From positions 1-36,680 of IMG/VR virus record IMGVR_UViG_3300009509_000061: 36,680 nt of DNA, one strand, 5' to 3'. The DNA is from a virus. A program made the translations under genes and the position numbers. This document shows positions 14,049 through 36,680 of the stretch, piece by piece (positions within the stretch are counted from its first letter, which is position 1; the number at the start of each line of letters is the position of its first letter). The notes under the pieces were generated by a model. That model was not told the DNA's origin, made no database searches, and was given only the letters and a program-made list of their open reading frames with translations.

Positions 14049-15140
14049 TTGAAAACAGCGTTTCTGATGAGGTACGGGGCATATGGGGATCATATTCATA
14101 TGTCGAACGTAATCAAAGCATTGGACGAGGACGGATATCATATCACGTTCGAGTACAATTTCAAAGGAGCGCAGATTCATGCGTATAACCCACGGATTGA
14201 CGAGCACAGGTTCTTTGAACCGTCAGATCATACCGACAGGAAAGACTTCTATAATCTGATAGAAGATAAAAAGAAGCAGGCAAAAGATACCCACGACCTG
14301 TTTGTGGACTTCTCGCATTCGCTTGAGGGCGCATTGATCGAGCCGGAAAGAAAGCCGAGTTACTTTTGGCCCCTGTGGATGCGAAGAAAAAAGAACATTC
14401 ATATCTGCTACTATGACCAGTCAATGATATGGGCAGGCTTGACAGACCCTAAGTACATGGGTTGGACAGGTGAGGTATTCTTTAAAAAAGAAGAACATGA
14501 ACACGTTCTGAATCAGTTGAAACCTTATGACGGAAAGTACGTCATTCTGTGGGCTCTCAGGGGAACCATGTGGCAAAAGGCTGTTTGTCATATTGTCAAG
14601 GACATTTGCAACGAATGGCTCAAGCGGCATCCAGATACGGTTATCATAACCACAGGCGACGAGTTCTGCAATAAGTGGGAGTGGGTGTCGGATGTTGGAA
14701 CAACGATTGCTCCGGAGGCAGGACTTGGAGACGGCAGTTCGTCAATCGTCCATAAATCTGCCCGAATGCCTTTCAGACAAGCGCTTCATATCGCCAGGTA
14801 CGCTGATCTTGTTGTCGCGCCTGAAACCGGACTTGGAATTGGTGCAGGAGCGTTTGGAACTCCAAAGATCATGCTTCTTACCTCGGCTTCACTCAAGAAC
14901 ATAGTCGGGAACGATAAGAACGACTATTCAATTCAATCGGACGTATACTGCTCTCCGTGTACCCGGGCCATCTATAACACCCTGAGCTGTTCCATAAACC
15001 GGGAAACAGGCTTGCCGATCTGTGTGGACTTTAAAAAAGAGGATATTTTACAAAAAATGGAGGATGCTTATAGCAATCATGGACTGTATAATCTGTCAAA
15101 CAGAAATGAATTACTTACAGAAAGACCTGTTTATATGTAA
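14049..15140 (+). CDS. Glycosyltransferase family 9 (heptosyltransferase-like)
   Basis: 363 aa. The start is TTG 14049 after the AAAAGGGGGAT box at 14035-14045. MRYGAYGDHIHMSNV (7-21) is the nucleotide-sugar transferase N-terminal pattern of GT9 enzymes, and PETG at 258-261 in VVAPETGLGIGAG is the conserved donor-site motif. A Cys-x-Pro-Cys at 301-304 with a third Cys at 314 recurs with identical spacing in the fused GT9 at 17336-18907, so the two are paralogs. It should move a sugar, perhaps a heptose-like one, to an acceptor in the cytoplasm. The acceptor is unknown; phage surface proteins are one possibility. Confidence 0.8.
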   Translation: MKTAFLMRYGAYGDHIHMSNVIKALDEDGYHITFEYNFKGAQIHAYNPRIDEHRFFEPSDHTDRKDFYNLIEDKKKQAKDTHDLFVDFSHSLEGALIEPERKPSYFWPLWMRRKKNIHICYYDQSMIWAGLTDPKYMGWTGEVFFKKEEHEHVLNQLKPYDGKYVILWALRGTMWQKAVCHIVKDICNEWLKRHPDTVIITTGDEFCNKWEWVSDVGTTIAPEAGLGDGSSSIVHKSARMPFRQALHIARYADLVVAPETGLGIGAGAFGTPKIMLLTSASLKNIVGNDKNDYSIQSDVYCSPCTRAIYNTLSCSINRETGLPICVDFKKEDILQKMEDAYSNHGLYNLSNRNELLTERPVYM

Positions 15141-15747
15141 ACAATGCGAATTGGTAAGTTCAAACATTTCTCCAGACCCTTCAATATATGACAGATCATA
15201 TGAGATTAAATATTCGAGATACGAGAACACTTTAGCTGGAGCTAGGATTCAGGAACTAAGAAGGCAGGCGGTTCTTGACGTAATAGGGTTTAAAAGCAAC
15301 AGGCAATTTAAACTTCTTGATTTTGGGTGTGGGGTTGGAAGTTTCATAAAGGCGATAGCAGATATTATTAATATAAAATCAAGCGGTTTCGATATAAATC
15401 CATACACTCAATATTGCGATATCTCAGTTCTATTTGATGATTACGATATTGTTACAATGTGGGATTCGATAGAGCATTTAAAGAATCCAATTACAATTAT
15501 AAAAAAACTTGATCCTGAGATTCTGGTTGTATGCACACCATCAACAGACGATTGTATGGGTGATTTGATTAGATGGCGTCATTATATGCCAGTAGAACAT
15601 TGCCATTATTTTAACGAATTGAGTCTGGTGAGTCTTTTTAAAGCGTGTGGGTACAGGCTTTTTAGGATTAATTATTCCGAATCAGGTCCAAGACACGGAG
15701 GTGGGGAGAAAAATATATTAACAATGTCCGGTGTAAAAGGGGGATAA
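15079..15747 (+). CDS. SAM-dependent methyltransferase with zinc-ribbon head
   Basis: 222 aa from ATG 15079, chosen because the zinc ribbon C-x-x-C...C-x-x-C (Cys3, 6, 20, 23) then sits at the very N-terminus; upstream starts lie inside the glycosyltransferase gene. The class I methyltransferase motif LLDFGCGVG lies at 79-87, the acidic ribose-binding FDIN at 104-107, and MWDSIEHL at 127-134. This Cys-head plus methyltransferase design is common among enzymes in sugar and polysaccharide clusters. The gene is visibly more AT-rich than its neighbours, suggesting separate acquisition. It could methylate a sugar on the glycan made by the GT9 enzymes. Confidence 0.75.
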   Translation: MDCIICQTEMNYLQKDLFICKQCELVSSNISPDPSIYDRSYEIKYSRYENTLAGARIQELRRQAVLDVIGFKSNRQFKLLDFGCGVGSFIKAIADIINIKSSGFDINPYTQYCDISVLFDDYDIVTMWDSIEHLKNPITIIKKLDPEILVVCTPSTDDCMGDLIRWRHYMPVEHCHYFNELSLVSLFKACGYRLFRINYSESGPRHGGGEKNILTMSGVKGG

Positions 15748-16596
15748 ATGGGACATATAAGTAAGTTATTAGCACTTGGAGAAATAGAACCAAGAACGCT
15801 TACGTCCAATATGATATGGACAGACTTATGCGAGAACGTGCATTTGCATTACAGAAATCTAAGATTTGACTTCTCCGAGAAGGAGTTTGCTGCCTGGCGA
15901 GCTGCGAATCATAATCTTGGTATGGCCGTGGAATATTCGGCAGACAAGTATAAGTTCAGAGAGGGAGATCCTAACTTTCTGGTACAGCAGATGTTTGATC
16001 ATCCACTCGAATCTAATTCAGATTATTATCCAAACAGGGTGTCCATAGAGCTTCAGAAGGATAACACGGTTCATGTCCACTACCGGGATCTTCGGATTCA
16101 TTTAACCCTATCTGAGTTTAACGCGATTGCAGATTTGTTCTGGATAGCAACGGTAGAATTTAAGCGCTCTAAGGATTTTCCGTATAAGGACGTTATTGAA
16201 AAAACGATTGTGAACGTGCATACCAGTCTTATTCAACCATATGATGAGGGCCATAGGCCGGGTGTGATTGATAAAGAACACAGGGATGGGATTGATTATT
16301 GCAAAAAACTTATAGAAGACGGAGAAAAAATCAGACCAATCCTTATTGATAACACCGGACAGCGGTTAGACGGGTTTAAGCGATACATGGCCCATGTGGA
16401 ACTGCTTTTGCCAAAGATTGAATGTATTATAGACCCGAACGGTATCATGGGAGGGCAGCACAATCAGAGTATGATCGCTGATAAGTATATGTGTTCTTCG
16501 TGCGGAGAACCGACAGACCCTAAAACAGTAGGTGGGACAGTTACAAGATGGTTCTGTGATAAATGCGGGTCATGGACCGATTTAACTGAAAATTAG
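15748..16596 (+). CDS. ParB-like domain protein with repeated HYR motif and zinc ribbon
   Basis: 282 aa. Two copies of one motif are visible: VHLHYRNLR at 31-39 and VHVHYRDLR at 108-116, each followed by a helix with Glu-Phe (SEKEFAAW, LSEFNAIA). Residues about 180-228 resemble a ParB/sulfiredoxin domain (LIEDGEKIRPILIDNTG, then LDGFKRYMAH). The C-terminus is a zinc ribbon with Cys249, 252, 270 and 273. The start follows AAAAGGGGGAT. ParB-like domains bind DNA or nucleotides and some have nuclease, CTPase or kinase-like chemistry. The substrate here is unknown; its position between sugar enzymes hints at nucleotide-sugar or glycan work. Confidence 0.6.
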   Translation: MGHISKLLALGEIEPRTLTSNMIWTDLCENVHLHYRNLRFDFSEKEFAAWRAANHNLGMAVEYSADKYKFREGDPNFLVQQMFDHPLESNSDYYPNRVSIELQKDNTVHVHYRDLRIHLTLSEFNAIADLFWIATVEFKRSKDFPYKDVIEKTIVNVHTSLIQPYDEGHRPGVIDKEHRDGIDYCKKLIEDGEKIRPILIDNTGQRLDGFKRYMAHVELLLPKIECIIDPNGIMGGQHNQSMIADKYMCSSCGEPTDPKTVGGTVTRWFCDKCGSWTDLTEN

Positions 16597-16633
16597 CATA
16601 GGATAATGACTGATTTAATTAAAAAACGGACTA

Positions 16634-16696
16634 TCGGGGAGTCGATGGTTTTAAATCCTCCTTTTTCCATCTTTGCCCGAGCGGGTGACTCCCCGA
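16634..16696 (+). ncRNA. Candidate three-way-junction RNA element
   Basis: TCGGGGAGTC (16634-16643) pairs perfectly with GACTCCCCGA (16687-16696). Inside, GATGG (16644-16648) pairs with CCATC (16667-16671), stacked without a gap on the outer stem, and CCC-GAGC-GGG (16676-16685) forms a small third hairpin. The result is a compact 63-base three-way junction in the only non-coding gap of the module. No T run follows, so it is not a simple terminator. No known family is recognised. Confidence 0.4.
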
Positions 16697-16721
16697 CCCA
16701 CTAAAAGATAAGGAGAGTTTT

Positions 16722-16901
16722 ATGAAATACAAACAGAATTATGGTGCAAGCGACAAGGACATTAAAAAGGGTCACTGCAACGATGAGTCTGGTGGTGACA
16801 AAATGGATGATGGACCTCCTAACAAATGGGTTCATCATGGAATCTTATACGATGAGGGCGATGGCGGTTTTGCCGGTCGTCCCAAGGGATCGGAAAGGTA
16901 G
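16722..16901 (+). CDS. Small polar protein, 59 aa
   Basis: ATG 16722 follows AAGGAGAG. The 59-residue product is hydrophilic, rich in Asp, Gly and Lys, with one Cys and two adjacent His. No fold or motif is recognised. It sits downstream of the structured RNA candidate, which could affect its translation. Confidence 0.55.
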   Translation: MKYKQNYGASDKDIKKGHCNDESGGDKMDDGPPNKWVHHGILYDEGDGGFAGRPKGSER

Positions 16902-16906
16902 GAATA

Positions 16907-17326
16907 ATGTTAAATAAAAGGAAGGATTACGGTACGGTTTATGGTGCGAATGGGATATCATACTGGCAGGATAACAAGTATTACAACATATTCGGGTATG
17001 AGGTTGACGAAACTGGGAAACAAATCGAGGAAGAAAAAGTTCCCGAAACCCCAAAACCAGTTCTCAAACCAGAAAACCTGGTTCCCGAGACTCCAAAACC
17101 GAGTGTAATCACTATTGGAAAGGTTGATGAGAAAACAGAATTGCCAGTATCAGACGATGTTCTTGACTTTATTGGCAGGTTGAAAATCGAGGATAAAAAT
17201 CAGGACGGGTTTGTTGATATTGAAGAAATGAGACAATGGCTTGAATTATACGGCCAGGAATACAGTAAACATGCCGGAAGAATGATTCTCGAAAAGAAGT
17301 TAAAGGAAGTTCTCGGTCTGGAATAA
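16907..17326 (+). CDS. EF-hand-containing protein
   Basis: 139 aa, six bases after the previous stop. Residues 96-107 are a textbook calcium-binding EF-hand loop: Asp96, Asn98, Asp100, Gly101, Val103, Asp104, Glu107, flanked by helices. Before it lies a Pro-rich linker with VPETPKP twice (45-51 and 59-65). The N-terminus has many Tyr and Gly. EF-hand or dockerin-like loops are unusual in phages and suggest calcium-dependent folding or binding outside the cell, for example on the virion surface. No signal peptide is seen. Confidence 0.6.
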   Translation: MLNKRKDYGTVYGANGISYWQDNKYYNIFGYEVDETGKQIEEEKVPETPKPVLKPENLVPETPKPSVITIGKVDEKTELPVSDDVLDFIGRLKIEDKNQDGFVDIEEMRQWLELYGQEYSKHAGRMILEKKLKEVLGLE

Positions 17327-17335
17327 GGGGGATGA

Positions 17336-18907
17336 ATGGTCTGGAAACCGGACGCACCTGAATACAACGAGTCTGCTAAAATCAAGTACGATATTGTCAG
17401 ATACACGCGAGGGCTCGGGCTCGATCTCGGATGCAATATTTACAAGGCGTTTCCGCACTTTATAGGCGTTGATAAGATCGTTATAAATCATTTGGACCCG
17501 CAGTATCAAACGTATGCGAGGTTTAATATTGACGTAAGCGCCGATGCTTCAAACCTGTATATGTTCGCGTCCGGTTCAATGGATTTTGTTTTTAGTTCTC
17601 ATTTGTTGGAACATCTTGAAAAACCACTCGACGCATTAAAGGAGTGGTGGCGGGTTATCAAGCAAGGTGGGTATCTGGTTCTCTATCTACCGCACAAGGA
17701 CTTTTACCCCAATATAGGTGAAGAAGGTTCCGCAATGGAGCATCTTCACGACTTTGGCCCCAGTCATATAGTTACGTTTATGAAAGAGGTCGGCGGGTGG
17801 GATCTGGTAGAAAACGAGAGTAGGAATGAAGGAAATGAGTACTCGTTTTTTCAGGTTTACCGAAAGCGCTCGGATAAACAGCAGCTTCACCTTTGGTCAC
17901 GCGAAAGAGCCAAAAAGACCTGTTGCGTTGTTCGCTATGGTGGATGGGGAGATATGATTCAAACGTCCTCGGTTCTACCGCTTTTGAGAAATGCCGGGTA
18001 TCATATCACCGTGAACACGAATCCGAGGGGATACGACGTTTTAAGACACGATCCGAATATTGACGAGTTCTTTGTGCAAGACACAGATCAGGTGCCGAAC
18101 GAGGAACTTGTACCGTATTGGACGAGTCTATCAAAGAAGTTCGATAAGTTCATAAACTTTTCTGAATCCGTTGAGGGAACATTCCTCGCCTTACCTGGAC
18201 GTACTTTCTATTACTGGAATCATCAGGCGAGACACAGTCTTTTAAACCGAAACTATCTTGAGTTCATGCACGAACTTGCTGGAGTTCCTTATATTCCCAG
18301 GCCAAAGTTTTATCCGTCTTCAAAAGAAATCGAGAAGGCTGGAAAACGAATAAGGAAAATAGGCGGCAAGGTTATCATGTGGGTGCTTGACGGGAGCTCC
18401 GTGCATAAACACTGGCCTCTGATGGACAACGCATTTGCGCGGATTTTAACGTCTTCAGACTATAAGATTGTGACCGTTGGCAACGAACTAAGCAAAATGC
18501 TTGAGTCTGGTTGGGAAAACGAGCCAAGGATTATAAAAAAAGCCGGGGAGTGGAGTATAAGGGATACACTCACGTTTGCAATGATGTGCGACATGGTGAT
18601 TGGTCCTGAAACGGGTGTAATGAATGCTGTTAGTTTTGAACCTATACCAAAAATTGTTTTCTTGTCTCACTCGTCTGTTGAGAATCTTTCAAGGGATTGG
18701 TTGAATTGCATATCGCTCGAACCGGAAAACTGCCAATGCTATCCGTGTCATAAGATGATCTATGAATGGAAGGACTGTAAAAGGGCGGCGTTTACATATT
18801 ATTTTAATGATAGGGCGCTTGAGATAGAGGGGTCCATGTGCCAAACCAATATTACTTTAGATAAATTCTGGTCTGCATTTATACGTCATTCAAGGGAATT
18901 TAGTTAA
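17336..18907 (+). CDS. Methyltransferase-GT9 glycosyltransferase fusion
   Basis: 523 aa with two catalytic domains. Residues 1-175 are a class I methyltransferase: LGLDLGCN at 27-34, IGVDK at 43-47, and FSSHLLEHLEKPLDAL in the post-motif. Residues 195-523 are a GT9 glycosyltransferase: VVRYGGWGDMIQTSSV at the start and PETG at 424-427. The C-x-P-C (468-471) plus Cys481 motif matches the stand-alone GT9 upstream exactly in spacing. The start at 17336 follows TAAGGGGGAT. The fusion suggests that the methyl and sugar steps act on the same substrate, one after the other. The substrate is unknown; a methylated sugar on a phage protein is an attractive guess. Confidence 0.8.
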   Translation: MVWKPDAPEYNESAKIKYDIVRYTRGLGLDLGCNIYKAFPHFIGVDKIVINHLDPQYQTYARFNIDVSADASNLYMFASGSMDFVFSSHLLEHLEKPLDALKEWWRVIKQGGYLVLYLPHKDFYPNIGEEGSAMEHLHDFGPSHIVTFMKEVGGWDLVENESRNEGNEYSFFQVYRKRSDKQQLHLWSRERAKKTCCVVRYGGWGDMIQTSSVLPLLRNAGYHITVNTNPRGYDVLRHDPNIDEFFVQDTDQVPNEELVPYWTSLSKKFDKFINFSESVEGTFLALPGRTFYYWNHQARHSLLNRNYLEFMHELAGVPYIPRPKFYPSSKEIEKAGKRIRKIGGKVIMWVLDGSSVHKHWPLMDNAFARILTSSDYKIVTVGNELSKMLESGWENEPRIIKKAGEWSIRDTLTFAMMCDMVIGPETGVMNAVSFEPIPKIVFLSHSSVENLSRDWLNCISLEPENCQCYPCHKMIYEWKDCKRAAFTYYFNDRALEIEGSMCQTNITLDKFWSAFIRHSREFS

Positions 18908-19879
18908 ATGGCAACATCAAAGTATTATTCAGAAACTCGAACAGTAACCCAGATTGTTACCGATGCCCATATTGATCTCGGTATTCACGACCCGGACGAA
19001 TCGCTTGATTCCAATAAGGTTACGGTCGGAATCAGAAAGCTAAACAACATTATATATCAATGGAAAGGCGTTGAGAACTATTGGGTTTCGGCTATGCGAA
19101 TGTGGCAGCGGGAACGTGCCTCCATGACCCTTGTTGCCGATCAGGGTTCATACGATTTAATGCCTGCAACTCTTGCGTTTACTTCCGGAGGAACATACGA
19201 GGTGGCAGTTGGCGATACGATTACAGGAGCAACCAGCGGTTCAACCGCAACGGTTGTTTCTGTATCGGTGACTTCTGGGACATGGGCAGGCGGGAATGCA
19301 GCCGGGAATCTTACCGTTGAGAATCAATCAGCAGCGTTTCAGTCTGAAAACCTGAATGTGGGTTCAAATACAAACGTAGCGACAATCGCAGCCGATTCTA
19401 CCGGGAGCGATCTTGAGATACTGCCTCCAGAGGAAATTTTGTTCGTATCTCTAAAGCACACTTCTTCCGGGTCTGAAATTCGGTTGCACCCAATGAATCT
19501 TGAGCAATACCAAAGTGTTACAAACAAGACTATAAACGGGATACCGACAAGATACTACTACGAGAAACGCAAGGACGTTTCCGGAAAACTCTACCTTGAT
19601 ATCGAGCCGTCATCCACAATCGCGTCAGCATATACGCTTGAGATAGTTTATCGGCAACCACTTGAGATAGCCAATGCCGGTACGAATGAGCTCGATTTTC
19701 CCGCTCATTGCTATCGCGCATTGGAGTTCCAGTTGGCTCTCGATCTCGCTCCTGGGTACAATATAAAAGGAGATACATACTCAGAGATCAGAGATAACCG
19801 TGATAACGCGATGATGCTGATGAACGCAAATGAGCCACAAGACATAGAATTTTATTACCAACCCGGGATTGACGAATAA
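18908..19879 (+). CDS. P22 gp4-like head-completion / tail adaptor protein
   Basis: 323 aa. The outer parts match the P22 gp4 tail-accessory type: an N-terminal helix bundle with LNNIIYQWKG, then EILFVSLKHTSSGSEIRLH, GIPTRYYYEKR and LEIVYRQPLEI. Residues about 89-165 are an extra beta domain (GDTITGATSGSTATVV, SGTWAGGNAAGNLT) seen in various phage structural proteins and inserted into the adaptor core. The protein should bind the portal ring after packaging and start tail assembly. The next gene begins in its stop codon (TAATG). Confidence 0.7.
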   Translation: MATSKYYSETRTVTQIVTDAHIDLGIHDPDESLDSNKVTVGIRKLNNIIYQWKGVENYWVSAMRMWQRERASMTLVADQGSYDLMPATLAFTSGGTYEVAVGDTITGATSGSTATVVSVSVTSGTWAGGNAAGNLTVENQSAAFQSENLNVGSNTNVATIAADSTGSDLEILPPEEILFVSLKHTSSGSEIRLHPMNLEQYQSVTNKTINGIPTRYYYEKRKDVSGKLYLDIEPSSTIASAYTLEIVYRQPLEIANAGTNELDFPAHCYRALEFQLALDLAPGYNIKGDTYSEIRDNRDNAMMLMNANEPQDIEFYYQPGIDE

Positions 19880-21204
19880 TGCCAACAAGAGCACTTCAGT
19901 TCGACATATTTTTAACACCAGTAATTGACTATCGGGACGGGTCTGTTGCCTCCGGATGGACAGTTTACTTTTATGCGGCTGGAACCTCAAACGCTAAAAA
20001 CGTGTGGACGGAATCAAGTAAGACGAATCCGTATACGTCTTATACACTTAGCGGAAGTGGGACAGCACTTCTTTATGGGGACGGGATTTACAAGCTCGTA
20101 TTTAAGGATCGGTCTTCAAATACGATCTTCACATGGGATAATGTGAAATGCCAGGCAAATACTTTTATAGTTTCAACAAAAACAGGGACGTATACTGCAA
20201 CACCAGATGACGACCTTATTCTTGTAGATACAAGTGGTGGAAGCATTGAAATAGACCTTGAAACGGTTGCGAGCTTTGAACATCCGCTTACAATCAAAAA
20301 CATAGGATCAAACACCGTAACGATTGATCCGTACTCGACACAGACGATTGACGGTTTATCGACAGTAACGTTGGTAGCCTTAAACTCGTCTGTCATACTT
20401 TATCCAGACACGAATGCAACCACTTGGCGCCGGGTTATAGCTCAGGCCACTCTTATTGATCTTGACGGCGATACGAAAATTCAGGTTGAGGAGTCGAGCG
20501 ATGAGGACATTATCAGGTTCGATATTGCTGGAACCGAACAGATAACGTTGCAGGATGGCAAGATTGAGCCGACAACCGACAGCGACATTGATCTTGGATC
20601 TGCTACTAAAGAGTTCAAACTTGCCTATATAGAAGGGTATAGAATCACAAGCACCCATAAAGCCATCATGCCGGTGAATGGTGTTAGCGCTGATGCAAAA
20701 TTTATGCTTGGTGATTCAAACACAATCCTATGGATGTATTTAAACACTGCACCTCCTGGATGGAAAGTGCTTTCTACCGGGGCAGACATGGTACTTGCCG
20801 TTGCTGGCGGGGCGCAGGCGTACAATGTCAACGGTGGAAACCCAGATAGTGTGGCAACGTGGACAATTTCTGCTGCAAATGAAAGTTCGCATACGCATAA
20901 TGTTACGGCGCATAACCACATGTGGTACGATTTTACTTCTGCAATCATGGACCACCAGACATTTGATAGTTCTGGGAACTCACTTAATCTTGATAATATT
21001 AACGATAATACAGCGAGTGCGGGAGATGCTTTTATTATCATTTCTTCAGCTGGTGCAGCTGGTATGGCAGAAGAAGATTTATACACAAACAATGCTTCTC
21101 CTTCAACAGATGGTGGTAGTTCGCATACCCACGCAATAGGCGGTGGCGGGACCTGGAGGCCAAAGGCGTCTGTTGGCAAACTGTTCCAACTGGATACGGC
21201 ATAA
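19879..21204 (+). CDS. Tail fibre with collar-type tip
   Basis: 441 aa. The N-terminal 90 residues (LTPVIDYRDGSVASGWTVYF, YGDGIYKLVFKD) form a beta domain often found at the virion-binding end of fibres. The middle (DLDGDTKIQVEESSDEDIIR, SDIDLGSATKEF) is a common fibre-shaft pattern. The end has PPGWKVLSTG, HTHNVTAHNH (339-347) and a second SSHTHAIGG near 416-418, His-x-His metal sites of tail-collar fibres, closing with WRPKASVGKLFQLD. It is probably a receptor-binding or neck fibre. The order gp4-like, fibre, hub suggests a position at the tail base. Confidence 0.75.
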   Translation: MPTRALQFDIFLTPVIDYRDGSVASGWTVYFYAAGTSNAKNVWTESSKTNPYTSYTLSGSGTALLYGDGIYKLVFKDRSSNTIFTWDNVKCQANTFIVSTKTGTYTATPDDDLILVDTSGGSIEIDLETVASFEHPLTIKNIGSNTVTIDPYSTQTIDGLSTVTLVALNSSVILYPDTNATTWRRVIAQATLIDLDGDTKIQVEESSDEDIIRFDIAGTEQITLQDGKIEPTTDSDIDLGSATKEFKLAYIEGYRITSTHKAIMPVNGVSADAKFMLGDSNTILWMYLNTAPPGWKVLSTGADMVLAVAGGAQAYNVNGGNPDSVATWTISAANESSHTHNVTAHNHMWYDFTSAIMDHQTFDSSGNSLNLDNINDNTASAGDAFIIISSAGAAGMAEEDLYTNNASPSTDGGSSHTHAIGGGGTWRPKASVGKLFQLDTA

Positions 21205-21512
21205 TGCTTCTTGAACCAATACAGATAAACGGAATTCCGCAAGGAAAATGTTTTGCGAAAAAGTGTAAGGATTGCGCCCATTATCGTAAGTGGAGAATTG
21301 AAGAAACCGATGGAGTTAAAAAAACAGAGGCAATTAGATCGGTTTGCTCATTTGAAACCCTATACCGTGTTCTTCCAGATGTTGTCGGTTCAATAGATGG
21401 GTGTCAAGCGGCTGTAAATCATACCCAAAATACCGTTTTAAAATTCGGCCAAGCGTCCATTGAAACGCTTCAGCAGATAGATAAAAATTTACCCAAATTA
21501 TTAAAGGAATAA
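21204..21512 (+). CDS. Cys-containing hypothetical protein, 102 aa
   Basis: Starts within the previous stop (TAATG). Cys16, Cys21, Cys24 and Cys48, with Cys67, may bind metal, in the pattern KCFAKKCKDCAHYRKW. The C-terminal part is an amphipathic helix (FGQASIETLQQIDKNLPKLL). Located among tail genes. Function unknown. Confidence 0.6.
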   Translation: MLLEPIQINGIPQGKCFAKKCKDCAHYRKWRIEETDGVKKTEAIRSVCSFETLYRVLPDVVGSIDGCQAAVNHTQNTVLKFGQASIETLQQIDKNLPKLLKE

Positions 21513-21516
21513 GCCA

Positions 21517-21822
21517 GTGTACGAGAATTATAAGTTTCTGAAGTCTAATAACAGGGCAAGGATCACGGTCGATGACAATGGTAATGCTTATTTAGCAAGG
21601 GATTTTTATAATAATGTTACGGGTGAATTAATTATTGAAGCGAGAACGGATATTATTGATCTTAATATGCTGAGTGATTTGAGAGATTCATTTCTTGACT
21701 TGGTTGAAAATATTGACGATTTGATTACTGACACAGAAAATAAGATTGCAGATTGGGTTGAGGCGAACACTCCAGAACCTACACCAACACCGACTCCAAC
21801 GCCCTCAGAGGTGATTCCGTAA
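21517..21822 (+). CDS. Hypothetical protein with Pro-Thr tail, 101 aa
   Basis: GTG 21517 is used, with AAAGGA upstream. The middle is a long helix with Leu/Ile heptads (LSDLRDSFLDLVENIDDLIT), a likely coiled coil. The last residues are a Pro-Thr repeat (PEPTPTPTPTPSE), a stiff extended linker similar in type to the big Ser-Pro repeats downstream. It is probably a minor virion component. The stop overlaps the next start. Confidence 0.6.
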   Translation: MYENYKFLKSNNRARITVDDNGNAYLARDFYNNVTGELIIEARTDIIDLNMLSDLRDSFLDLVENIDDLITDTENKIADWVEANTPEPTPTPTPTPSEVIP

Positions 21823-23264
21823 TGCTTGTAAATCTTCCAATACATCTTGGTATGGTAAAAGCGGTTGATGAGGTCGGCCTAAGAACAAACAACGCTGCGC
21901 TTCAGGATGTTTATATTGACGAACTCGGAAGTGTGAATAGAAGGCCCGGGTTGACCGAGTTTGTGGATCTTGGAACTTCTGCCGCGATTGATGGTCTATT
22001 CTGGTGGGAAAAACAAGATTGGGTTTTAGCTGTATCAAACGGGAATACTTATAAGGTAACAGCAAATGACGGTACGTTCGCTCAGATTACACATGACAAT
22101 ACAAACTGGGCCGCTGGTGGGAGAATCACGTTTGCAGACTTTGGCACGGCTATTTACGGCGCTGATGGGGCAAAGATTAAGAAAATTCCTAACTCTGGAA
22201 ACGTGATTGATATGGCAGATGTCGATGCCCCAACAACCGTGTCTCATGTGGCTTTTTTAGATAAGTACTTACTTGCAAATGAAGTGGGTTCAAGGAATTG
22301 TCACAGATCAGATGTAAACGCTCCCGATACCTGGACGGCACAAACATTTGCGTCTGAAGCTCAGTATGACGATCTAAAGGCGATTATTTCTGCCGATCTA
22401 AGGGTTTTGCTTCTTGGAGATAGAACCCTTGAAGTCTGGTATAACGATGGCACGACCCCGTTTATAAGAGAACAACAGGGATTTATACAAAGTGGGACAA
22501 TTGCACCATACTCGTTCACATATTGCGATAACCCGATAAATACATTGGCATGGCTTGACCAGATGAGAAACGCGGTTCTTCTTTCCGGCAGATCCGCAAA
22601 CGTAATGTCGGGTACGATGACAAAATACATACAGGGATTCACAACGGTTACGGATGCGAGAGGTGACTATATGGTTCTGGCCGGTCGGCCTTATTATATT
22701 CTTAGCTTTCCGACCGAGGACAAAACTCTTGTGTACGATTTTCAAAATCAGTTTTGGTACGAGTGGGGATACTGGAACTCGATATGGTCAGAATACGAAC
22801 GCTGGAGGGGAAATTGTTATTGTCTTGCTCCCGCGTGGAATTTTTCTCTTGTGGGAGACAGGGCGAACGGTAAGATTTATACGATTGACAACACCGAATA
22901 TACCGATGATGGGGATACGTTAAGAAGCCTTATCAGAACCGGGCATATCAACCACGGATATCCGGGGAATAACAAAAAATGCAATGCGCTTCATATTCGC
23001 ATGAAAAGAACCGAAGTTTTAGTTGGATCACCTGCACCGGAAGAAGGGAGCGCAATTACTTTAATGCTAAGATACAGGGATAACGGCATAACATCATGGT
23101 CTACCCAGAAATCAATAACTATGAGTGCTCAGTCTGGTGAAACAGATTACCAGGCGACTATATTACAGCTTGGTATGTATAAATCAAGACAATGGGAGTT
23201 TGTTTTAACCGATGACGCCGCTCTTTGTATCACGCAGGTTCAAGAGGATGTTGATATTCTATGA
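21822..23264 (+). CDS. P22 gp10-like tail hub / DNA stabilisation protein
   Basis: 480 aa. The beginning (NLPIHLGMVKAVDEV, YIDELGSVNRRPGLTEF, then FWWEKQDWVLAVSNGNTYKV) is the start of a beta-propeller-like protein typical of P22 gp10, which plugs and extends the tail after packaging. Repeated strands with Trp and Gly continue to the end. It starts in the stop of the previous gene and is followed by a short gene in an ATGA overlap. The assignment rests on pattern and order and is moderately firm. Confidence 0.65.
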   Translation: MLVNLPIHLGMVKAVDEVGLRTNNAALQDVYIDELGSVNRRPGLTEFVDLGTSAAIDGLFWWEKQDWVLAVSNGNTYKVTANDGTFAQITHDNTNWAAGGRITFADFGTAIYGADGAKIKKIPNSGNVIDMADVDAPTTVSHVAFLDKYLLANEVGSRNCHRSDVNAPDTWTAQTFASEAQYDDLKAIISADLRVLLLGDRTLEVWYNDGTTPFIREQQGFIQSGTIAPYSFTYCDNPINTLAWLDQMRNAVLLSGRSANVMSGTMTKYIQGFTTVTDARGDYMVLAGRPYYILSFPTEDKTLVYDFQNQFWYEWGYWNSIWSEYERWRGNCYCLAPAWNFSLVGDRANGKIYTIDNTEYTDDGDTLRSLIRTGHINHGYPGNNKKCNALHIRMKRTEVLVGSPAPEEGSAITLMLRYRDNGITSWSTQKSITMSAQSGETDYQATILQLGMYKSRQWEFVLTDDAALCITQVQEDVDIL

Positions 23265-23488
23265 GTACGGTTTATCATGTCAGACCACCTCGATCAGACA
23301 GCCAGGAAGAAATCAACAGATTCTATCTCAGGGTATGCGAACTTTTAAGCTACCTAACATACGCCGGAGATCCGACTAATAATGTCACACCAAGATTTAT
23401 AGGAGATAGATGCAACGATACCAGTAATGACGAATGGTACGTTTGTCATGGAATAACATCAGCAGATTGGCAAAAAATAACACCATAA
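23261..23488 (+). CDS. Small structural-type protein, 75 aa
   Basis: ATGA overlap with the hub gene. The end (NVTPRFIGDRCNDTSNDEWYVCHG, ending TSADWQKI) resembles a short beta motif often found at the ends of phage tail proteins. The N-terminal half is helical. Function unknown. Confidence 0.55.
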   Translation: MSTVYHVRPPRSDSQEEINRFYLRVCELLSYLTYAGDPTNNVTPRFIGDRCNDTSNDEWYVCHGITSADWQKITP

Positions 23489-23513
23489 AAGGGGGATTTT
23501 ATGGAGATGAAAA

Positions 23514-24521: not shown

Positions 24522-24533
24522 GAGGTTTTTAAC

Positions 24534-25421: not shown

Positions 25422-25423
25422 GC

Positions 25424-28726: not shown

Positions 28727-29040
28727 GAACATTATCAGAGCAGAGCATAAAGAAACTTCGAAAAGACGGTGCTCTTATTTATAATGAACAGGGCAGAAAG
28801 GTAAAGCCGATCCTAAAAACAGTTGAACCTCAGAAGAAGGATGAAGCCGCAGCGTCGTTGGGTTTTATAAAGAAAGCGCTCCTATCTCTCGTACAGGTTT
28901 TGCACGAACGACTTTCCGGCATACAGGAACAGAACAAAAAAATAACGGCTATGCTGTCTGATAGGGACAAAAAATCATGGAGGTTTAGGGTTGTAAGAGG
29001 AAAAGACGGGACTATCCGTGAGGTTATAGCCAGTAAATAG
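28723..29040 (+). CDS. Small coiled-coil protein, 105 aa
   Basis: ATG 28723 overlaps the previous stop (ATGA). The middle is a likely coiled coil (SLVQVLHERLSGIQEQNKKI). The end, WRFRVVRGKDGTIREVIA, is a short beta hairpin found at the end of several phage proteins. Function unknown; possibly a virion or chaperone component. Confidence 0.6.
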   Translation: MRTLSEQSIKKLRKDGALIYNEQGRKVKPILKTVEPQKKDEAAASLGFIKKALLSLVQVLHERLSGIQEQNKKITAMLSDRDKKSWRFRVVRGKDGTIREVIASK

Positions 29041-29044
29041 AGGG

Positions 29045-29383
29045 ATGACAAGCAACAATCGCATGAAGATTGAGCTTGAAATAGACGATAAATATGCGGA
29101 TACGAACCTCTATTTAATGTGGGGGATGGTCCCGATTGCAAGAAGGCTTTTTACCAAGCAATACTGGGAAATCAAAAGCGGATTTTGCAGTAAGTGCGGA
29201 AAATGTTGCAGGCGTATAACCGACGAAAAGCGCTTTCCGTTTGCGAGTGAAAATGGCTGTATTTATCTAAACGAATATAACCAATGCTCTTTGACAATTT
29301 TTAGACCTGTTGGGTGTTCCATCTCGGACTCTCCGATTGAGTCTTGTACTTTGGAATGGGTGAAGTATGACGACCTATTATAG
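29045..29383 (+). CDS. YkgJ-like Cys-cluster protein
   Basis: 112 aa. CSKCGKCCR (Cys48, 51, 54, 55), later Cys72, Cys81, Cys91 and Cys101, with [19 protein letters not shown], match the YkgJ CxxCxxCC family, which binds zinc or an iron-sulfur cluster. Members are often found beside sugar and secondary-metabolism genes. It immediately precedes the giant Ser-rich protein, whose start overlaps its end by 17 bases, so the two should be co-translated. A maturation role for the repeat protein is possible but unproven. Confidence 0.7.
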
Positions 29384-32300
29384 TGTTGTAACGGGTTCGA
29401 GGATACTTAATTCTTCCAGGGTAGACCAGTCCGGTTCTGATAATGCTGCGGTAACAAACTGGCCGAGGCGCAATGATTTTATCCTTGCAGTTCATATTGA
29501 CGATAATAGCAAGGATGCTGCCGCAAGCACATATAAACTTCAATGGGAAAGAACCGATAACCCCGGTTTTACTGACCTTGCGGCAACCGGGGAGCTAAAC
29601 TATACTGTTGGCGGCGCAACCGCTTTATCCAATGGTACGGCATGTTCTTACGCAAGTGGAGATTGGCGATGTACGGATAAGCAGGGATCGGGTTTTACGG
29701 CCATAGACGGTACGGAAAGAGAGGATTCGAACGCGACTGTTGCATTTGACGGTTCCGATGACGATGAAACCGAAATGCAATGGGCGATAAACACCGATGA
29801 TGCCCTTGTAGACAAGACGTATGCTTTTCAGCTAATTGATACCGCAAATGGGGATGCTGTAAAAGCAGTTGCGGTAACAATTTCAATAATTGGTGGCCCT
29901 TCTGAGTCTGCAAGCGAATCACCATCCGAAAGTCCGTCAGAAAGCCCGTCTGAATCTCCTTCATTAAGCCCGAGCGCAAGTGAGAGTCCTTCAGAAAGTC
30001 CGAGTTTAAGTCCAAGCGCGAGTGAATCACCGAGCGAAAGCCCGAGTGAATCCCCATCTGAAAGTCCAAGCGAATCACCATCAGAATCACCGTCAGAAAG
30101 TGCATCGGAATCACCTTCTGAATCACCTTCGGAAAGTCCAAGTGAATCTCCATCAGAATCACCGTCAGAAAGCGCATCGGAATCGCCGTCAGAATCACCG
30201 TCGGAATCACCAAGCCCTTCTCCAAGCGAACCGTTTGACGGGCATCTATTTGAAGACAGAGACACCTATGTAGAATGGACAGAAACAGGCGCTTTTGAGT
30301 TTCATCCTACACCAACGGAAGCGATTGAAAGTGCATCAGAATCTCCAAGCGAGAGCCCCTCAGAGAGTCCATCTGAAAGTCCGAGTTTATCTCCGAGTGC
30401 GTCTGAGTCGCCATCTGAAAGTGCGTCTGAAAGCCCCTCAGAATCACCATCATTATCTCCATCTGCCAGTGAATCACCGTCTGAATCTGCCAGCGAGTCA
30501 CCATCCGAGAGCCCGAGTGAAAGTCCGTCAGAATCACCAAGTTTAAGCCCGAGCGCGTCTGAGTCACCGTCGGAATCCCCATCTGAAAGTCCAAGCGAGA
30601 GTCCGTCACTTTCTCCAAGTGCGTCTGAGTCACCATCTGAAAGTCCAAGCGAGAGCCCATCCGAATCACCGAGTTTAAGTCCCTCGGCATCCGAATCACC
30701 TTCTGAAAGTGCAAGCGAGAGTCCGAGCGAATCACCGAGTTTGAGCCCTTCTGCATCAGAAAGTCCATCTGAATCGGCCTCTGAATCTCCAAGTGAGAGT
30801 CCGTCACTTTCGCCAAGCGCGAGTGAGTCTCCATCAGAGTCACCCTCCGAATCACCATCGGAGAGTCCGTCGTTATCTCCAAGTGCAAGTGAGAGCCCAA
30901 GTGAAAGCGCTTCGGAGTCACCGTCAGAGTCACCATCTCTATCCCCGAGCGCATCGGAGTCTCCGAGTGAGTCGGCTTCTGAGAGCCCGTCAGAATCTCC
31001 ATCATTAAGTCCGAGCGCCTCGGAATCACCGAGTGAGAGCCCAAGTGAGTCACCCTCGGAATCGCCCTCTCTTAGTCCATCGGCAAGCGAAAGTCCGTCA
31101 GAGAGTGCGTCGGAATCACCAAGTTTAAGTCCTTCTGCTTCTGAAAGTCCGTCAGAGAGTGCTTCCGAGAGCCCATCTGAAAGTGCGTCATTATCACCAA
31201 GCGCATCTGAGTCACCGTCCGAAAGTGCTTCGGAATCACCATCAGAGAGCCCGAGTCTATCACCGAGCGCTTCAGAGTCACCAAGCGAATCAGCCAGTGA
31301 ATCACCGTCCGAAAGTCCGAGCCTGTCACCGAGCGCAAGTGAATCACCAAGTGAGTCACCGTCTGAGTCACCTTCAGAGTCGCCATCACTTTCTCCATCA
31401 GCGAGCGAATCCCCTTCAGAGTCGCCGTCGTTATCACCATCTGCGTCGGAAAGCCCATCGGAGAGTCCATCGGAATCACCGTCTGAGAGTCCAAGTTTAT
31501 CTCCGAGTGCTTCAGAATCCCCTTCGGAATCACCGAGCGAGTCACCATCGGAGAGTCCAAGTTTATCACCAAGTGCATCTGAATCGCCAAGTGAGTCACC
31601 ATCGGAATCTCCAAGCGAATCTCCGTCATTATCGCCTTCTGCATCTGAGTCACCGTCTGAATCACCATCAGAAAGTCCGTCTGAATCTCCATCATTATCA
31701 CCAAGTGCAAGTGAATCGCCGTCTGAAAGTCCCAGTGAATCTGCGTCTTTATCTCCATCTGCTTCAGAGAGTCCAAGTGAAAGCCCATCGGAGAGTCCAT
31801 CATTATCACCAAGTGCAAGTGAGTCACCGTCCGAGTCACCATCTGAGAGTCCGTCACTTAGTCCAAGTGCTTCTGAGTCCCCATCGGAATCTCCATCATT
31901 ATCACCAAGTGCATCTGAGTCTCCGTCCGAGAGTCCTTCACCAAGTCCTTCAGCGGGAGTTTCAGAAAGTCCGTCAGAATCTCCGTCTGAGTCTCCATCA
32001 GAATCACCAAGTCTAAGCCCGAGTGCTTCAGAATCTCCATCGGAAAGTCCATCTGAGAGCCCCTCCGAATCACCATCATTATCACCGAGCGCGTCCGAGA
32101 GTCCAAGTGAATCACCATCGGAGTCTCCCTCAGAGTCACCAAGTTTAAGCCCAAGCGCTTCAGAGAGTCCATCGGAAAGCCCATCAGAGTCTCCATCTGA
32201 AAGCCCTAGCCTAAGTCCAAGCGCGTCAGAATCGCCATCGGAATCTCCAAGTGAATCACCATCTGAGAGTCCAAGTTTATCTCCGAGTGCATCTGAATCG

Positions 32301-33452
32301 CCAAGTGAATCGCCATCTGAGTCTCCATCCGAATCACCGTCATTATCCCCATCTGCGTCAGAGTCACCGAGTGAATCACCGAGCGAAAGCCCATCGGAGA
32401 GTCCGTCATTATCGCCATCAGCAAGTGAATCGCCATCTGAGTCACCATCAGAATCACCGTCTGAATCTCCGTCATTGTCACCAAGTGCTTCTGAAAGCCC
32501 GAGCGAATCACTGAGCGAAAGTCCATCTGAGAGCCCATCTGAATCACCATCTCTTTCTCCGTCGGCGTCAGAATCGCCTTCTGAATCACCAAGTGAGAGT
32601 CCGAGCGAATCTCCATCTGAGTCTCCTTCACCAAGTCCAAGTGGAGAAGTGATATGGACGGATACCACCGATGTTCTTTTTCATGATGGAGATGTTGGAT
32701 CACCAGCAATATTTACACCAAAAGGAACTATTACACCAAGCCCATCCGAGTCGCCATCCGAGTCACCATCTTTATCACCATCTTCGAGTGAGAGTCCATC
32801 GGAGTCACCAAGTTTAAGTCCGAGTGCATCGGAATCACCGTCGGAGTCTCCTTCTGAATCACCAAGTGAGAGTCTGTCTGAGTCACCGAGTCTTAGTCCG
32901 TCTGCGTCAGAATCACCGTCAGAGTCACCATCTGAATCACCATCTGAAAGTCCATCGGAAAGCCCGAGCGAATCCCCATCAGAATCTCCAAGTGAAAGTC
33001 CATCGTTATCACCATCTGCGAGTGAAAGTCCCAGTGAGTCACCATCGGAAAGTCCGTCTGAGTCACCATCTGAGTCACCATCCGAATCACCGTCCCCTTC
33101 TCCGGGTGCGCCGATAGAAGGTACAGTAGCTTGGGGGCAAGTAACCGGAGTGGAAGAAGATTATGCAAGAACATTTGTGGATAATTGGAGTGGGTCTGGT
33201 CAAATAAGTGGGACCGGAGATACCGAGCAGATAATACTTGATAGTGGTGAATACATGGAGAGTGAGATTGTTCACATTGGAGTTAATCAAGTTCAAATTT
33301 TAATTGATAAATATAGAACTGGATCGGGTTCGTCCCCAACGATAAAGTATAAAGATGGTGATACTGAAGAAAACTGTGATTTGGATACATGGAATACTTA
33401 TACGGGTCCATTTTCGTCATCTGGATATAACCGTATACGAGTAGAAAATTAA
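29367..33452 (+). CDS. Giant Ser-Glu-Pro repeat protein 1 (putative fibre/adhesin)
   Basis: 1361 aa. Residues 1-178 form a beta-rich N-terminal domain ([37 protein letters not shown]). Then come long arrays of Ser-Glu-Ser-Pro and Ser-Leu-Ser-Pro-Ser-Ala units, broken by two short unique cassettes near residues 289-318 and 1092-1124. The C-terminal domain from about 1247 has Trp, Tyr and Gly-rich strands ([20 protein letters not shown]). The array must be extended, acidic and disordered or PPII-like, fit to serve as a long spacer on the virion surface. The many Ser beside Pro are good O-glycosylation or phosphorylation sites. No signal peptide, so it is probably part of the virion. Confidence 0.75.
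30231..30320 (+). repeat. Cassette A, copy 1
   Basis: A 30-residue island within the Ser-rich array ([16 protein letters not shown], ending FEFHPTPTE). A related copy is in gene 2 at 34779-34868 with the same length and clear DNA similarity. It may be a small fold or processing or attachment point between spacer arrays. Confidence 0.75.
32642..32739 (+). repeat. Cassette B, copy 1
   Basis: An island with [18 protein letters not shown], paired with the copy at 35292-35388 in gene 2. A run of 46 bases (32678-32723) is identical to 35327-35372, so the copies exchanged or duplicated recently. Confidence 0.8.
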
Positions 33453-33455
33453 GTT

Positions 33456-36179
33456 ATGGCCGCAACGGTAATCACATCAGCGACGAATCAAGTACGGGCA
33501 AATGCCGAGAGCACCGGCATTACTGTAACACATGGATTCTCGCTTTCCAATGGTGACGTTCTTTACGCTTTTTTGGCGCAAGGTGATGATCCAGGAACCG
33601 TATGGGCGAGTTCTTCTGGCGGCACATGGACTTCAATTTTCTTTAGTTCCTCATCTGTCGGAAACGATAGAGTATTAGGCGTTTTGCGCCGGGTCGTAAC
33701 CGATGCCGGGAGTGAACCAAGCACTTATACTTTTACTCTAACCGGAAACAACGCGGTTGACAACCTCGCGGCAGTTGTAGTTCAGGTTCGTGGGGCAAAT
33801 ACTTCTACACCAGAAGATGCTACACCAACAAGCGGCTTGGGTCCAAATGACTTTACCCCAGCTTCAACTACAATAGATACGTCTACCAATAACGCCCTGA
33901 TTCTTCCCGCCCATCTTGCATCTACCGCTTACGGTTATGCTATAGGAAAAACTGCTGGGCCTCCAAATGGCGGCGGGTATTCAATAGTTAATTCAGCATT
34001 ATATGATGATGAGGTCGAAAACTACGGTTTATTCTTAGAAGTTGCTAAACTCGAAAGCAGCGGGGCGGCAGGGACAAAAGACCCGGGAACCTGGACGGGA
34101 ACTCCAGATGATGGAACGTCTGAATGGGATGTTGTTACTATTGCAGTTAGATCCACATCTGGATCGTCAGAATCGCCTTCAGAATCACCATCTGAAAGTC
34201 CCTCCGAGAGTCCATCTGAATCACCATCCGAATCACCATCGTTATCCCCGAGTGCCTCTGAATCACCATCCGAATCACCATCGTTATCCCCGAGTGCCTC
34301 TGAATCACCATCCGAATCACCATCAGAGAGTCCATCAGAATCGCCGTCTGAGTCTCCATCAGAAAGTCCGTCGGAGAGTCCTTCAGAATCTCTATCAGAG
34401 TCACCATCTGAGAGTCCAAGTTTAAGCCCATCAGCGAGTGAGAGTCCAAGCGAGTCACCGTCAGAATCGCCATCTGAAAGTCCGTCAGAAAGTCCATCGG
34501 AGTCGCCGTCTGAAAGTCCGTCTGAGAGTCCATCCGAATCTCCATCCGAGAGTCCAAGTGAGTCATCGTCTGAATCTCCATCAGAATCTCCGAGTGAGTC
34601 ACCGTCGGAATCTCCGTCTGAGTCTTCATCTTTATCTCCATCTGCAAGTGAGTCACCGTCAGAGAGTCCCTCTGAAAGCCAGAGTGAGAGTCCATCGGAG
34701 TCACCAAGTTTAAGTCCAAGTGCATCAGAATCACCATCGGAGTCCCCTTCCGAATCACCGAGCCCATCTCCAAGTGTTCCGTTTGATGGAAATCTATTTG
34801 AGGATAGGGACACCGATTATAAGTGGACTGAAACGAGTGCGTTTGAATTTCACCCAACGCCAACAGAATCTCCAAGTGAATCACCGTCTGAAAGTCCATC
34901 TGAGAGTCCATCGGAATCACCATCCTTATCTCCATCGGCAAGTGAAAGCCCATCAGAGTCGCCAAGTGAATCTCCATCCGAATCTCCAAGTGAAAGTCCA
35001 TCCTTATCTCCAAGCGCAAGTGAGTCACCGTCTGAATCACCATCTGAATCACCATCTGAGTCACCAAGTTTAAGTCCATCAGCAAGTGAGTCACCGTCTG
35101 AGTCACCGTCTGAATCTCCAAGTGAGTCACCATCTGAGAGTCCAAGTTTAAGCCCAAGTGCATCAGAGTCACCATCGGAATCGCCGTCAGAATCTCCTTC
35201 AGAATCACCGTCAGAAAGTCCATCTTTGTCTCCGTCGGCGTCAGAATCCCCATCAGAATCTCCAAGTGAAAGTCCATCACCAAGCCCAAGTGGAGGAGTA
35301 ACATGGATAGATACTACTGGTGTTACTTTTCATGATGGAGATGTTGGATCACCAGCAATATTTACACCAAAAGATGGTATTACACCAAGTCCGAGTGAAT
35401 CACCATCGGAGTCCCCATCCTTATCGCCCAGTGCGTCAGAAAGTCCAAGCGAATCGCCAAGTCTAAGCCCATCTGTGAGTGAATCACCATCAGAGAGTCC
35501 AAGTGAGTCACCGTCAGAATCACCGTCGGAGTCTCCTTCTTTATCTCCATCGGCAAGTGAATCACCGTCTGAGTCACCAAGTGAAAGTCCATCACCAAGC
35601 CCATCGGGGGCTGAACAAATAGTTATAGAAGATATTGTTTTTAATTTAATAGTTTCTTCGGAAAGTCCGTCTGAGTCACCATCTGAGTCTCCGTCTGAAA
35701 GCCCAAGCGAATCTCCGTCATTATCGCCTTCTGCATCTGAGTCACCGTCTGAGTCACCATCTGAGAGTCCAAGTTTATCTCCGAGTGCATCTGAATCGCC
35801 AAGTGAATCGCCATCGGAATCTCCAAGTGAATCACCGTCTTTATCCCCTTCTGCATCGGAAAGCCCGAGTGAGTCTCCATCTTTAAGTCCGTCTGCAAGT
35901 GAGTCACCGTCTGAATCTCCATCTTTATCTCCATCGGCTTCTGAAAGCCCATCAGCAAGTGAATCGCCGTCTGAGTCACCGTCAGCGAGTCCAAGTCCAT
36001 CAGAGGAAATTCAAGAAGGGTATGAAACTGAAACAGGGGGGGGAAGATACGGAATATTAAAAGGTGGGGTCGTTTGGCCGGAATCACCATATGAGCGTTT
36101 ACTTAAAAAGATTAGAAAAGAGGATGAGGAAATTCTAAAAATCATAAAAGCAATAGCAGAATCGGGGATATTAGATTGA
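33456..36179 (+). CDS. Giant Ser-Glu-Pro repeat protein 2 (putative fibre/adhesin)
   Basis: 907 aa. The N-terminal domain (1-236) differs from that of gene 1 and reads like a beta-sandwich lectin or fibre domain (LSNGDVLYAFLAQGDDPGTVW, then EPSTYTFTLTGN). The rest is Ser-Glu-Ser-Pro arrays with cassettes A (442-471) and B (613-644), a third short island (VIEDIVFNLIV), and a charged C-terminal tail (YERLLKKIRKEDEEILKIIK) that may be a coiled coil. It begins three bases after gene 1 ends. Genes 1 and 2 share islands and array style, so they are partial duplicates with different heads and tails, perhaps for two receptors or two places on the virion. Confidence 0.75.
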   Translation: MAATVITSATNQVRANAESTGITVTHGFSLSNGDVLYAFLAQGDDPGTVWASSSGGTWTSIFFSSSSVGNDRVLGVLRRVVTDAGSEPSTYTFTLTGNNAVDNLAAVVVQVRGANTSTPEDATPTSGLGPNDFTPASTTIDTSTNNALILPAHLASTAYGYAIGKTAGPPNGGGYSIVNSALYDDEVENYGLFLEVAKLESSGAAGTKDPGTWTGTPDDGTSEWDVVTIAVRSTSGSSESPSESPSESPSESPSESPSESPSLSPSASESPSESPSLSPSASESPSESPSESPSESPSESPSESPSESPSESLSESPSESPSLSPSASESPSESPSESPSESPSESPSESPSESPSESPSESPSESPSESSSESPSESPSESPSESPSESSSLSPSASESPSESPSESQSESPSESPSLSPSASESPSESPSESPSPSPSVPFDGNLFEDRDTDYKWTETSAFEFHPTPTESPSESPSESPSESPSESPSLSPSASESPSESPSESPSESPSESPSLSPSASESPSESPSESPSESPSLSPSASESPSESPSESPSESPSESPSLSPSASESPSESPSESPSESPSESPSLSPSASESPSESPSESPSPSPSGGVTWIDTTGVTFHDGDVGSPAIFTPKDGITPSPSESPSESPSLSPSASESPSESPSLSPSVSESPSESPSESPSESPSESPSLSPSASESPSESPSESPSPSPSGAEQIVIEDIVFNLIVSSESPSESPSESPSESPSESPSLSPSASESPSESPSESPSLSPSASESPSESPSESPSESPSLSPSASESPSESPSLSPSASESPSESPSLSPSASESPSASESPSESPSASPSPSEEIQEGYETETGGGRYGILKGGVVWPESPYERLLKKIRKEDEEILKIIKAIAESGILD
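34219..34302 (+). repeat. Perfect 42-base tandem duplication
   Basis: 34219-34260 and 34261-34302 are identical, and about 22 bases of a third copy follow. Elsewhere equivalent units differ at many synonymous positions, so this is a young expansion and shows that array length still changes. Confidence 0.8.
34779..34868 (+). repeat. Cassette A, copy 2
   Basis: Encodes PFDGNLFEDRDTDYKW ending FEFHPTPTE, the gene 2 counterpart of 30231-30320. Same length of 90 bases, several synonymous and a few non-synonymous differences. Confidence 0.75.
35292..35388 (+). repeat. Cassette B, copy 2
   Basis: Encodes [19 protein letters not shown], the counterpart of 32642-32739, with a 46-base identical core. 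Confidence 0.8.
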
Positions 36180-36680
36180 ATATAACAATTACTGGAAGCC
36201 GGGGATTTATAGGTTCAAACATTGTTGGTTTTTTACAGAAACCATATCGCGAAATAGATCATACTTTAGGCACTGATTGCCGTGAATTATTCGGGCAAAC
36301 AGGGACTTTGATTCATCTGGCGGCATCAATTTCAGAAGGTGAGTCTTATATGAATCCCAGGAAATATATCAACAATAATATAGGCTCTCTTGCGAAGATA
36401 TTATCAGACAACAAGTTTGATAATGTAATATTTGCATCTTCATCTGCTGTTTACGATATAAATGGGAGATTAGAACCAAGATCAATATATGGTGTTACTA
36501 AACTTGCTGGAGAACATATTATTAAAAACTATGCGCCTAATTATTGGATATTAAGAATCACAAATCCGTTTGGTCCAAATGATAAAAAGTCTGTATTTGC
36601 TAAATTGGCCGAATGTAAAAAACTTAATCGTATATTTACAATTTATAATAACACTTCAATCGAAAAGGATTTTTTTCACG
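36176..36680 (+). CDS. NAD-dependent epimerase/dehydratase, 3' end missing
   Basis: TTG 36176 overlaps the stop of repeat gene 2 as TTGA. The frame stays open for 168 codons to the window edge. GSRGFIGS at 7-14 is the Gly-rich NAD(P)-binding loop of extended SDR sugar epimerases, LIHLAA at 45-50 and FASSSAVY at 86-93 follow, and the catalytic Tyr105-x-x-x-Lys109 is present. Likely substrate is a nucleotide sugar, as for UDP-glucose epimerase or dTDP-sugar dehydratases. It would feed the glycosyltransferases upstream. It sits after the Ser-rich proteins, so sugar supply and possible acceptors are neighbours. The last part lies outside the window. Confidence 0.85.
   Translation, partial: MNITITGSRGFIGSNIVGFLQKPYREIDHTLGTDCRELFGQTGTLIHLAASISEGESYMNPRKYINNNIGSLAKILSDNKFDNVIFASSSAVYDINGRLEPRSIYGVTKLAGEHIIKNYAPNYWILRITNPFGPNDKKSVFAKLAECKKLNRIFTIYNNTSIEKDFFH

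Follow-up and report, generated by a model that had tools for sequence, protein, structure and literature searches.

Candidate mucin-type O-glycosylation of serine-rich tail proteins in uncultured phages, and a separate capsid-linked GT9 gene set

The DNA analysed here, referred to as the window, is IMGVR_UViG_3300009509_000061, an entire linear viral contig of 36,680 bp. It comes from an uncultured podovirus-like phage and carries its primase, terminase, portal, scaffold, capsid, connector, Hc3 and ejection genes on a single strand (+); a search of the 36,680 bp found no tRNA genes. A protease gene (PHROG 20754, 7e-61) lies 5′ of the terminase at 4848-5849, and a ClpP-like serine protease was assigned by eye at 3603-4004 from 'FINSPGGDAFSGLALAD'. 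The genes considered below belong to a capsid-linked set and to an operon at the right end:

12598..13539, + strand: major capsid protein (PHROG 1357, 6.2e-19), which anchors the GT9 cassette
13556..13999, + strand: probable head decoration protein, 147 aa, named from its position beside GT9a
14049..15140, + strand: GT9a, GT9-fold glycosyltransferase, 363 aa (AlphaFold model, 3TOV match, WaaC/WaaF alignment)
15022..15747, + strand: class I methyltransferase (PF13489, 6.7e-16)
15748..16596, + strand: cassette gene, ParB-like by eye, with a zinc-ribbon-like C-terminus (Pfam matches sub-threshold only)
17336..18907, + strand: methyltransferase-GT9 fusion (GT9b), 523 aa (PF08241, 1.5e-11, in the N-terminal part; GT9 domain from its model)
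18908..19879, + strand: connector-type gene closing the capsid slot (PHROG 12985, 1.1e-16, a PHROG without assigned function)
29045..29383, + strand: CxxCxxCC-type protein, 112 aa, first gene of the repeat operon
29367..33452, + strand: W1, Ser-X repeat protein of 1361 aa with a globular domain at each end (Ser-X run count)
33456..36179, + strand: W2, 907-aa Ser-X repeat protein (Ser-X run count)
36176..36680, + strand: nucleotide-sugar epimerase, truncated by the contig end (PF01370, 2.1e-18)

Neither GT9 enzyme of the window has a match in Pfam or PHROGs. The GT9 profile reaches structure 3TOV (E 1.1e-5), and PF01075 was detected in 5 of 17 relatives. The AlphaFold model of GT9a (pLDDT 84.6) has 3TOV as its top PDB match (1.1e-13), the model of the GT9 domain of GT9b (pLDDT 83) matches the same structure at 7.6e-14, and for both models the best PDB glycosyltransferase matches are 3TOV (~1e-13) and E. 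coli WaaF (~1e-11), with WaaC and TibC also among the top matches. As modelled, both enzymes have the GT-B fold of GT9 type. Alignment with WaaC/WaaF shows that the N-terminal G-D, with its catalytic-type Asp, is invariant in the phage GT9s, which lack the WaaC/WaaF donor motif D-[ST]-G-x-x-H; that position reads E-T-G, with no His. The phage enzymes also carry four invariant Cys, of which the first pair forms CxxC while the other spacings differ from those of TibC. A sequence-only reading of this DNA had named two GT9 glycosyltransferases and two methyltransferases, one fused to a GT9, and the profiles and AlphaFold models (3TOV, WaaF), together with Pfam (PF13489; PF08241), confirm these assignments. 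The likely start of the methyltransferase at 15022 is at about residue 20 of the frame, where its homologues begin, and it overlaps the end of GT9a.

We sampled GT9 genes by an alignment-based scan (423 relatives in viral contigs, 80 kept) and mapped the neighbourhoods of GT9 and capsid loci in all six frames; the major capsid protein has 127 relatives in viral contigs, and near-identical capsid genes occur in metagenomes IMG 3300009506 and 3300010413. Of the 70 GT9-sampled loci with enough DNA, 68 had the capsid gene 5′ of the GT9 in the same orientation, the GT9 lay 3′ of the capsid gene in 29 of 31 capsid-sampled loci, and no capsid/GT9 pair was on opposite strands. A connector-type or Hc3 homologue followed the glycosyltransferase in 61 of 77 GT9 loci. 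Homologues of the 147-aa protein, 40-67% identical, occupy the interval between the capsid and GT9a genes of relatives, and four other phages, whose capsid proteins are only 35-65% identical, share the window's order of capsid, decoration protein, GT9a, then methyltransferase, 15748-type gene and others, and GT9b. In L082-L085 this cassette also contains 56-60% homologues of the product of 15748..16596. GT9b is a core gene of the capsid slot. Across this phage group, GT9a, the methyltransferase and the methyltransferase-GT9b fusion recur almost universally as a late gene set; 50,697 isolate phages yielded no match to either GT9 type. A role in the virion is favoured by the fixed place of the GT9s between the capsid and connector genes, and the set probably modifies a component of the particle, for instance the capsid itself or the decoration protein. 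A capsid-family lineage without a GT9, despite sufficient downstream DNA (L071, L075), offers a natural comparison for GT9 function.

At the right end of the window, 1002 of the 1361 residues of W1 and 536 of the 907 residues of W2 lie in strict Ser-X runs, far above chance, and the longest such run is 542 residues. Ser stands at every second residue, with Pro, Glu, Ala and Leu between, so that the tracts are rich in Pro and Glu; the two proteins also have short insert motifs in common. The sequence-only reading was right about the sizes of the two Ser-rich proteins, whose repeats are more regular than it had claimed, and about the nucleotide-sugar epimerase (PF01370), the gene truncated at the contig end. 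All six Ser codons, TCN and AGY mixed, are used, and the maintenance of the Ser-X pattern while the DNA varies suggests selection on the protein. We regard W1 and W2 as putative virion proteins of this phage, with a presumed location in the particle. The TTG start of the epimerase overlaps the W2 stop codon, and the contig ends within this gene, so that whatever lies 3′ of the repeats falls outside it; a scan of viral contigs with the epimerase found no continuation of the window past its end.

Because low-complexity masking blinded tblastn to the repeat sequence, we used a degenerate DNA pattern instead, and this, combined with a search for relatives, yielded Ser-X tract genes in at least 26 records of otherwise different phages. 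Among the matches listed, a GT2 glycosyltransferase was present in 18 of the 26 repeat records, compared with 5 of 24 controls, which were chance matches to the same DNA pattern and were unmatched in taxonomy (Fisher p 7e-4); the 26 count twice one tract gene that L108 and L156 share, and the 8 records with no GT2 among the matches listed include several that are short or end within the tract. In 11 of the 26, again among the matches listed, the nearest GT2 match began on the same strand 3-474 bp 3′ of the tract gene, the distance being within 90 bp in ten of them, whereas random placement in 5000 trials gave a mean of 2.6 such records and a maximum of 8. Epimerase alone (4 of 26 among the matches listed, 1 of 24 controls) and Methyltransf_23 (5 of 26 among the matches listed, 3 of 24 controls) were not clearly enriched with the repeats. 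When 85k bacterial and archaeal genomes were searched with the tract pattern, three matches were returned, with no Ser-X tract in the gene starts examined; they resemble Thr/Pro linkers or chance matches.

In relatives, the domains found in tract proteins are of tail type (Sipho_Gp37, 4e-21; minor tail protein) and of lectin type (Laminin_G_3, F5/8 type C), and the tracts lie within or between them. The neighbouring enzymes occur in varying combinations of Methyltransf_24, GT-D, UDP-sugar dehydrogenase, DegT aminotransferase, NTP transferase (nucleotidyltransferase) and sulfotransferase, with a second GT2 of ~560 aa (GT2b) further along the cassette. A recurrent arrangement, which joins GT2a, the GT2 gene immediately 3′ of the tract gene, to varying sugar genes, GT2b and in most cases a gene of Methyltransf_24 type, was seen in L207, L154, L168, L189, L158, L090, L144, L104, L169 and L203, three of which have a 67-aa gene after GT2b. 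Sulfotransferase-family proteins inside the repeat cassette (L158, 7383-8048; L168, 4236-4997, minus strand, the latter just under the Pfam cut-off) suggest sulfated glycans. In L100 (5534-6209, minus strand) stops or a frameshift disrupt the GT2a gene that immediately follows the repeat gene; other records have intact copies.

GT2a is one homologous family across ten phages, with 39-57% identity to the first member and a length of 286-319 aa where intact. When its profile was compared with PDB sequences, 14 polypeptide GalNAc-transferases led the matches, ahead of generic GT2 enzymes, and the best of these (E 1.8e-11) spans most of the catalytic domain. For the reciprocal analysis, GT2a homologues were sampled regardless of repeats (454 viral contigs, 80 kept), and the DxHC motif was present in 77 of the 80. 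Removal of near-duplicates and of records from the repeat scan left 53 independent loci, and a Ser/Thr-tract gene lay directly 5′ of GT2a in 26 of these, 23 of them with an alternating run of at least 40 residues, the 80 retained loci being those nearest to seeds picked beside tracts. When other positions were drawn at random from these loci, a tract gene was found in 2 of 53 (p 4e-8), and tract genes were upstream in 3 of 80 GT9 loci and 2 of 63 capsid loci. The tracts beside GT2a differ in sequence (SPSE, SPSV, SPSI, PTTTTTPAP), and the conserved feature is therefore their Ser/Thr density. About half of the GT2a loci have no upstream Ser/Thr tract, so that the range of tail proteins on which GT2a acts may be broader. 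No GT2a homologue was detected in 50,697 isolate phages, and a literature search, which left subscription papers mostly outside its reach, found no paper joining the string SPSESPSE with phage and no phage GT27-like system.

The window is connected to this cassette through two of its genes. In record 3300009506_000095 a W1 homologue contains both end domains in one protein (35% and 56% identity), and the order there is a related 112-aa CxxCxxCC gene, the W1 homologue, two more tract genes and GT2a; a 51.5% homologue of the window epimerase lies ~3 kb 5′ of the GT2a gene in L320. The presence of W1 and epimerase homologues in GT2a records suggests that the window is the left-hand portion of an operon of this kind. 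No GT2 gene is present on the contig, which stops ~500 bp after the start of the epimerase that follows W2, and the position expected for a GT27-like gene lies beyond it; a GT2a gene may be located downstream in the window phage. The small CxxCxxCC-type protein of 3300009506_000095 (13228-13563) is a 27% homologue (1.8e-10) of the 112-aa protein of the window, and in both phages it is kept directly 5′ of the W1-type gene.

The sequence-only reading had the phage glycosylating its own Ser-rich arrays, with its GT9 and methyltransferase genes acting on the Ser-Pro repeats. That these genes glycosylate and methylate the repeats is in our judgement very improbable. They share one contig with the repeats, the GT9-like TibC heptosylates Ser of autotransporters (PMC4358343), and a four-Cys C-terminal motif is common to TibC and the phage GT9s and missing from E. 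coli WaaC/WaaF. However, the Ser-Pro pattern was present, window aside, in 0 of 41 capsid/GT9-family records and 0 of 44 additional GT9 records, many of the searched records being fragments and several exceeding 40 kb, and GT9 profile A1 matched 0 of the 26 repeat records among the matches listed, while a closely similar GT9 profile, A3, used as a positive control, matched 29 of 38 control records. Since each is absent from the records of the other, the GT9 set neither depends on nor travels with the repeats, and its fixed position is beside the capsid gene instead. The idea of an enzyme encoded near its Ser-rich target survives, strongly supported by the GT2a of relatives; its proposed route through the GT9 and methyltransferase genes does not, as the survey of relatives shows the independent occurrence that had been named in advance as the refuting outcome. 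We also think it unlikely that the GT9s modify the LPS or another surface glycan of the host and so block superinfection: the LPS heptosyltransferases WaaC/WaaF are among their fold relatives, but their donor-site motif differs, and near-universal presence inside a late capsid module, with 423 relatives in viral contigs, is unlike typical accessory exclusion genes.

For the repeats themselves, the tracts might be plain, unglycosylated spacers between adhesion domains, with the neighbouring GT2 cassette acting on the host surface. The tracts do connect lectin-like and tail domains, the upstream tract is missing from half of the GT2a loci, and enzymes of the kinds found in the cassette also build cell-surface glycans. 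We nevertheless rate this explanation as improbable, because the tight adjacency of tract and GT2a, seen when either gene was the starting point, and the relationship of GT2a to polypeptide GalNAc-transferases point to the tract protein as the acceptor.

The best reading of the window is thus one of two separate sugar systems, a right-end repeat operon (system A) and a capsid-linked GT9 set (system B). Since Ser-rich genes often adjoin a GalNAc-transferase-like enzyme in other uncultured phages, their tail proteins are probably sugar-coated, and we consider it reasonably likely, if far from certain, that mucin-like Ser-X tail proteins are O-glycosylated by a phage GalNAc-transferase-like enzyme, with a separate capsid-linked GT9 system. 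In the mechanism that we infer from the observed gene order, homology and co-occurrence, and which extends to the acceptor, the sugar, the timing, all of the chemistry and the location in the virion, GT2a would put the first sugar on the Ser/Thr of the tract, and the remaining cassette enzymes would make, extend or cap the glycan. The glycosylated Pro-rich tract would form a stiff, hydrated, sugar-coated tail arm, bearing binding domains and shielding the virion. For the window phage, the cassette would begin with the epimerase, and the GT9 set would modify a component on the capsid side. The broader proposal, that many uncultured tailed phages have mucin-type tract tail proteins, GT27-like O-glycosylation encoded in the same operon and elaboration by methyl- and sulfotransferases, of which the window would hold the protein half together with a capsid-linked GT9 set, strikes us as an evenly balanced one.

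To our knowledge, virion glycosylation has been described for only a few phages. If this interpretation is true, mucin-like coats would be common in uncultured phages, given GT2a homologues in 454 viral contigs and 0 of 50,697 isolate records. The Ser/Thr-tract tail protein and the GalNAc-transferase-like enzyme would be a recurrent two-gene unit, a small and testable viral O-glycosylation system, and the near fixation beside the capsid of a GT9 that is often methyltransferase-fused would make capsid glycosylation a possible core trait of a large uncultured phage group.

One close parallel is with mucins, whose sugar chains are started in animals by a polypeptide GalNAc-transferase. The phage GT2a resembles these GT27 enzymes in its catalytic-domain profile, its DxHC motif and its retained E-x-x-E-[IL]-x-F-[KR]-x-W-x-x-G-G region, and its acceptor-like tracts are likewise rich in Ser, Thr and Pro. 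The animal enzymes have a C-terminal ricin-type lectin domain, whereas the phage protein is only ~300 aa long and leaves no room for one. In overall logic, the nearest systems are Gram-positive SRRPs and glycosylated mycobacteriophage virions. In the SRRP loci (Fap1/GspB, GtfA-GtfB; PMC6973325, PMC5207161) a long Ser-rich repeat protein is encoded near its own glycosyltransferases, as in the phages. The phage cassette differs in having a GT2 and no GT4-type pair like GtfA/GtfB (PF13692 matched 2 of 50 records, including, among the matches listed, 1 of the 26 with repeats), and its repeats are strictly Ser-X and lie in tail proteins. For the GT9 set, TibC and the BAHT enzymes provide a match in fold and in the presence of four C-terminal Cys, which in the iron finger of TibC are at 339, 342, 358 and 370 (PMC4358343); the phage GT9s differ in Cys spacing, show no N-terminal beta-barrel in predicted secondary structure and adjoin capsid and connector genes and no autotransporter. 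The modification proposed for system B also resembles that of Mycobacterium phages, whose capsid and tail tube are reported to be glycosylated (Freeman 2023, as cited in PMC12619734); the host and gene neighbourhood differ.
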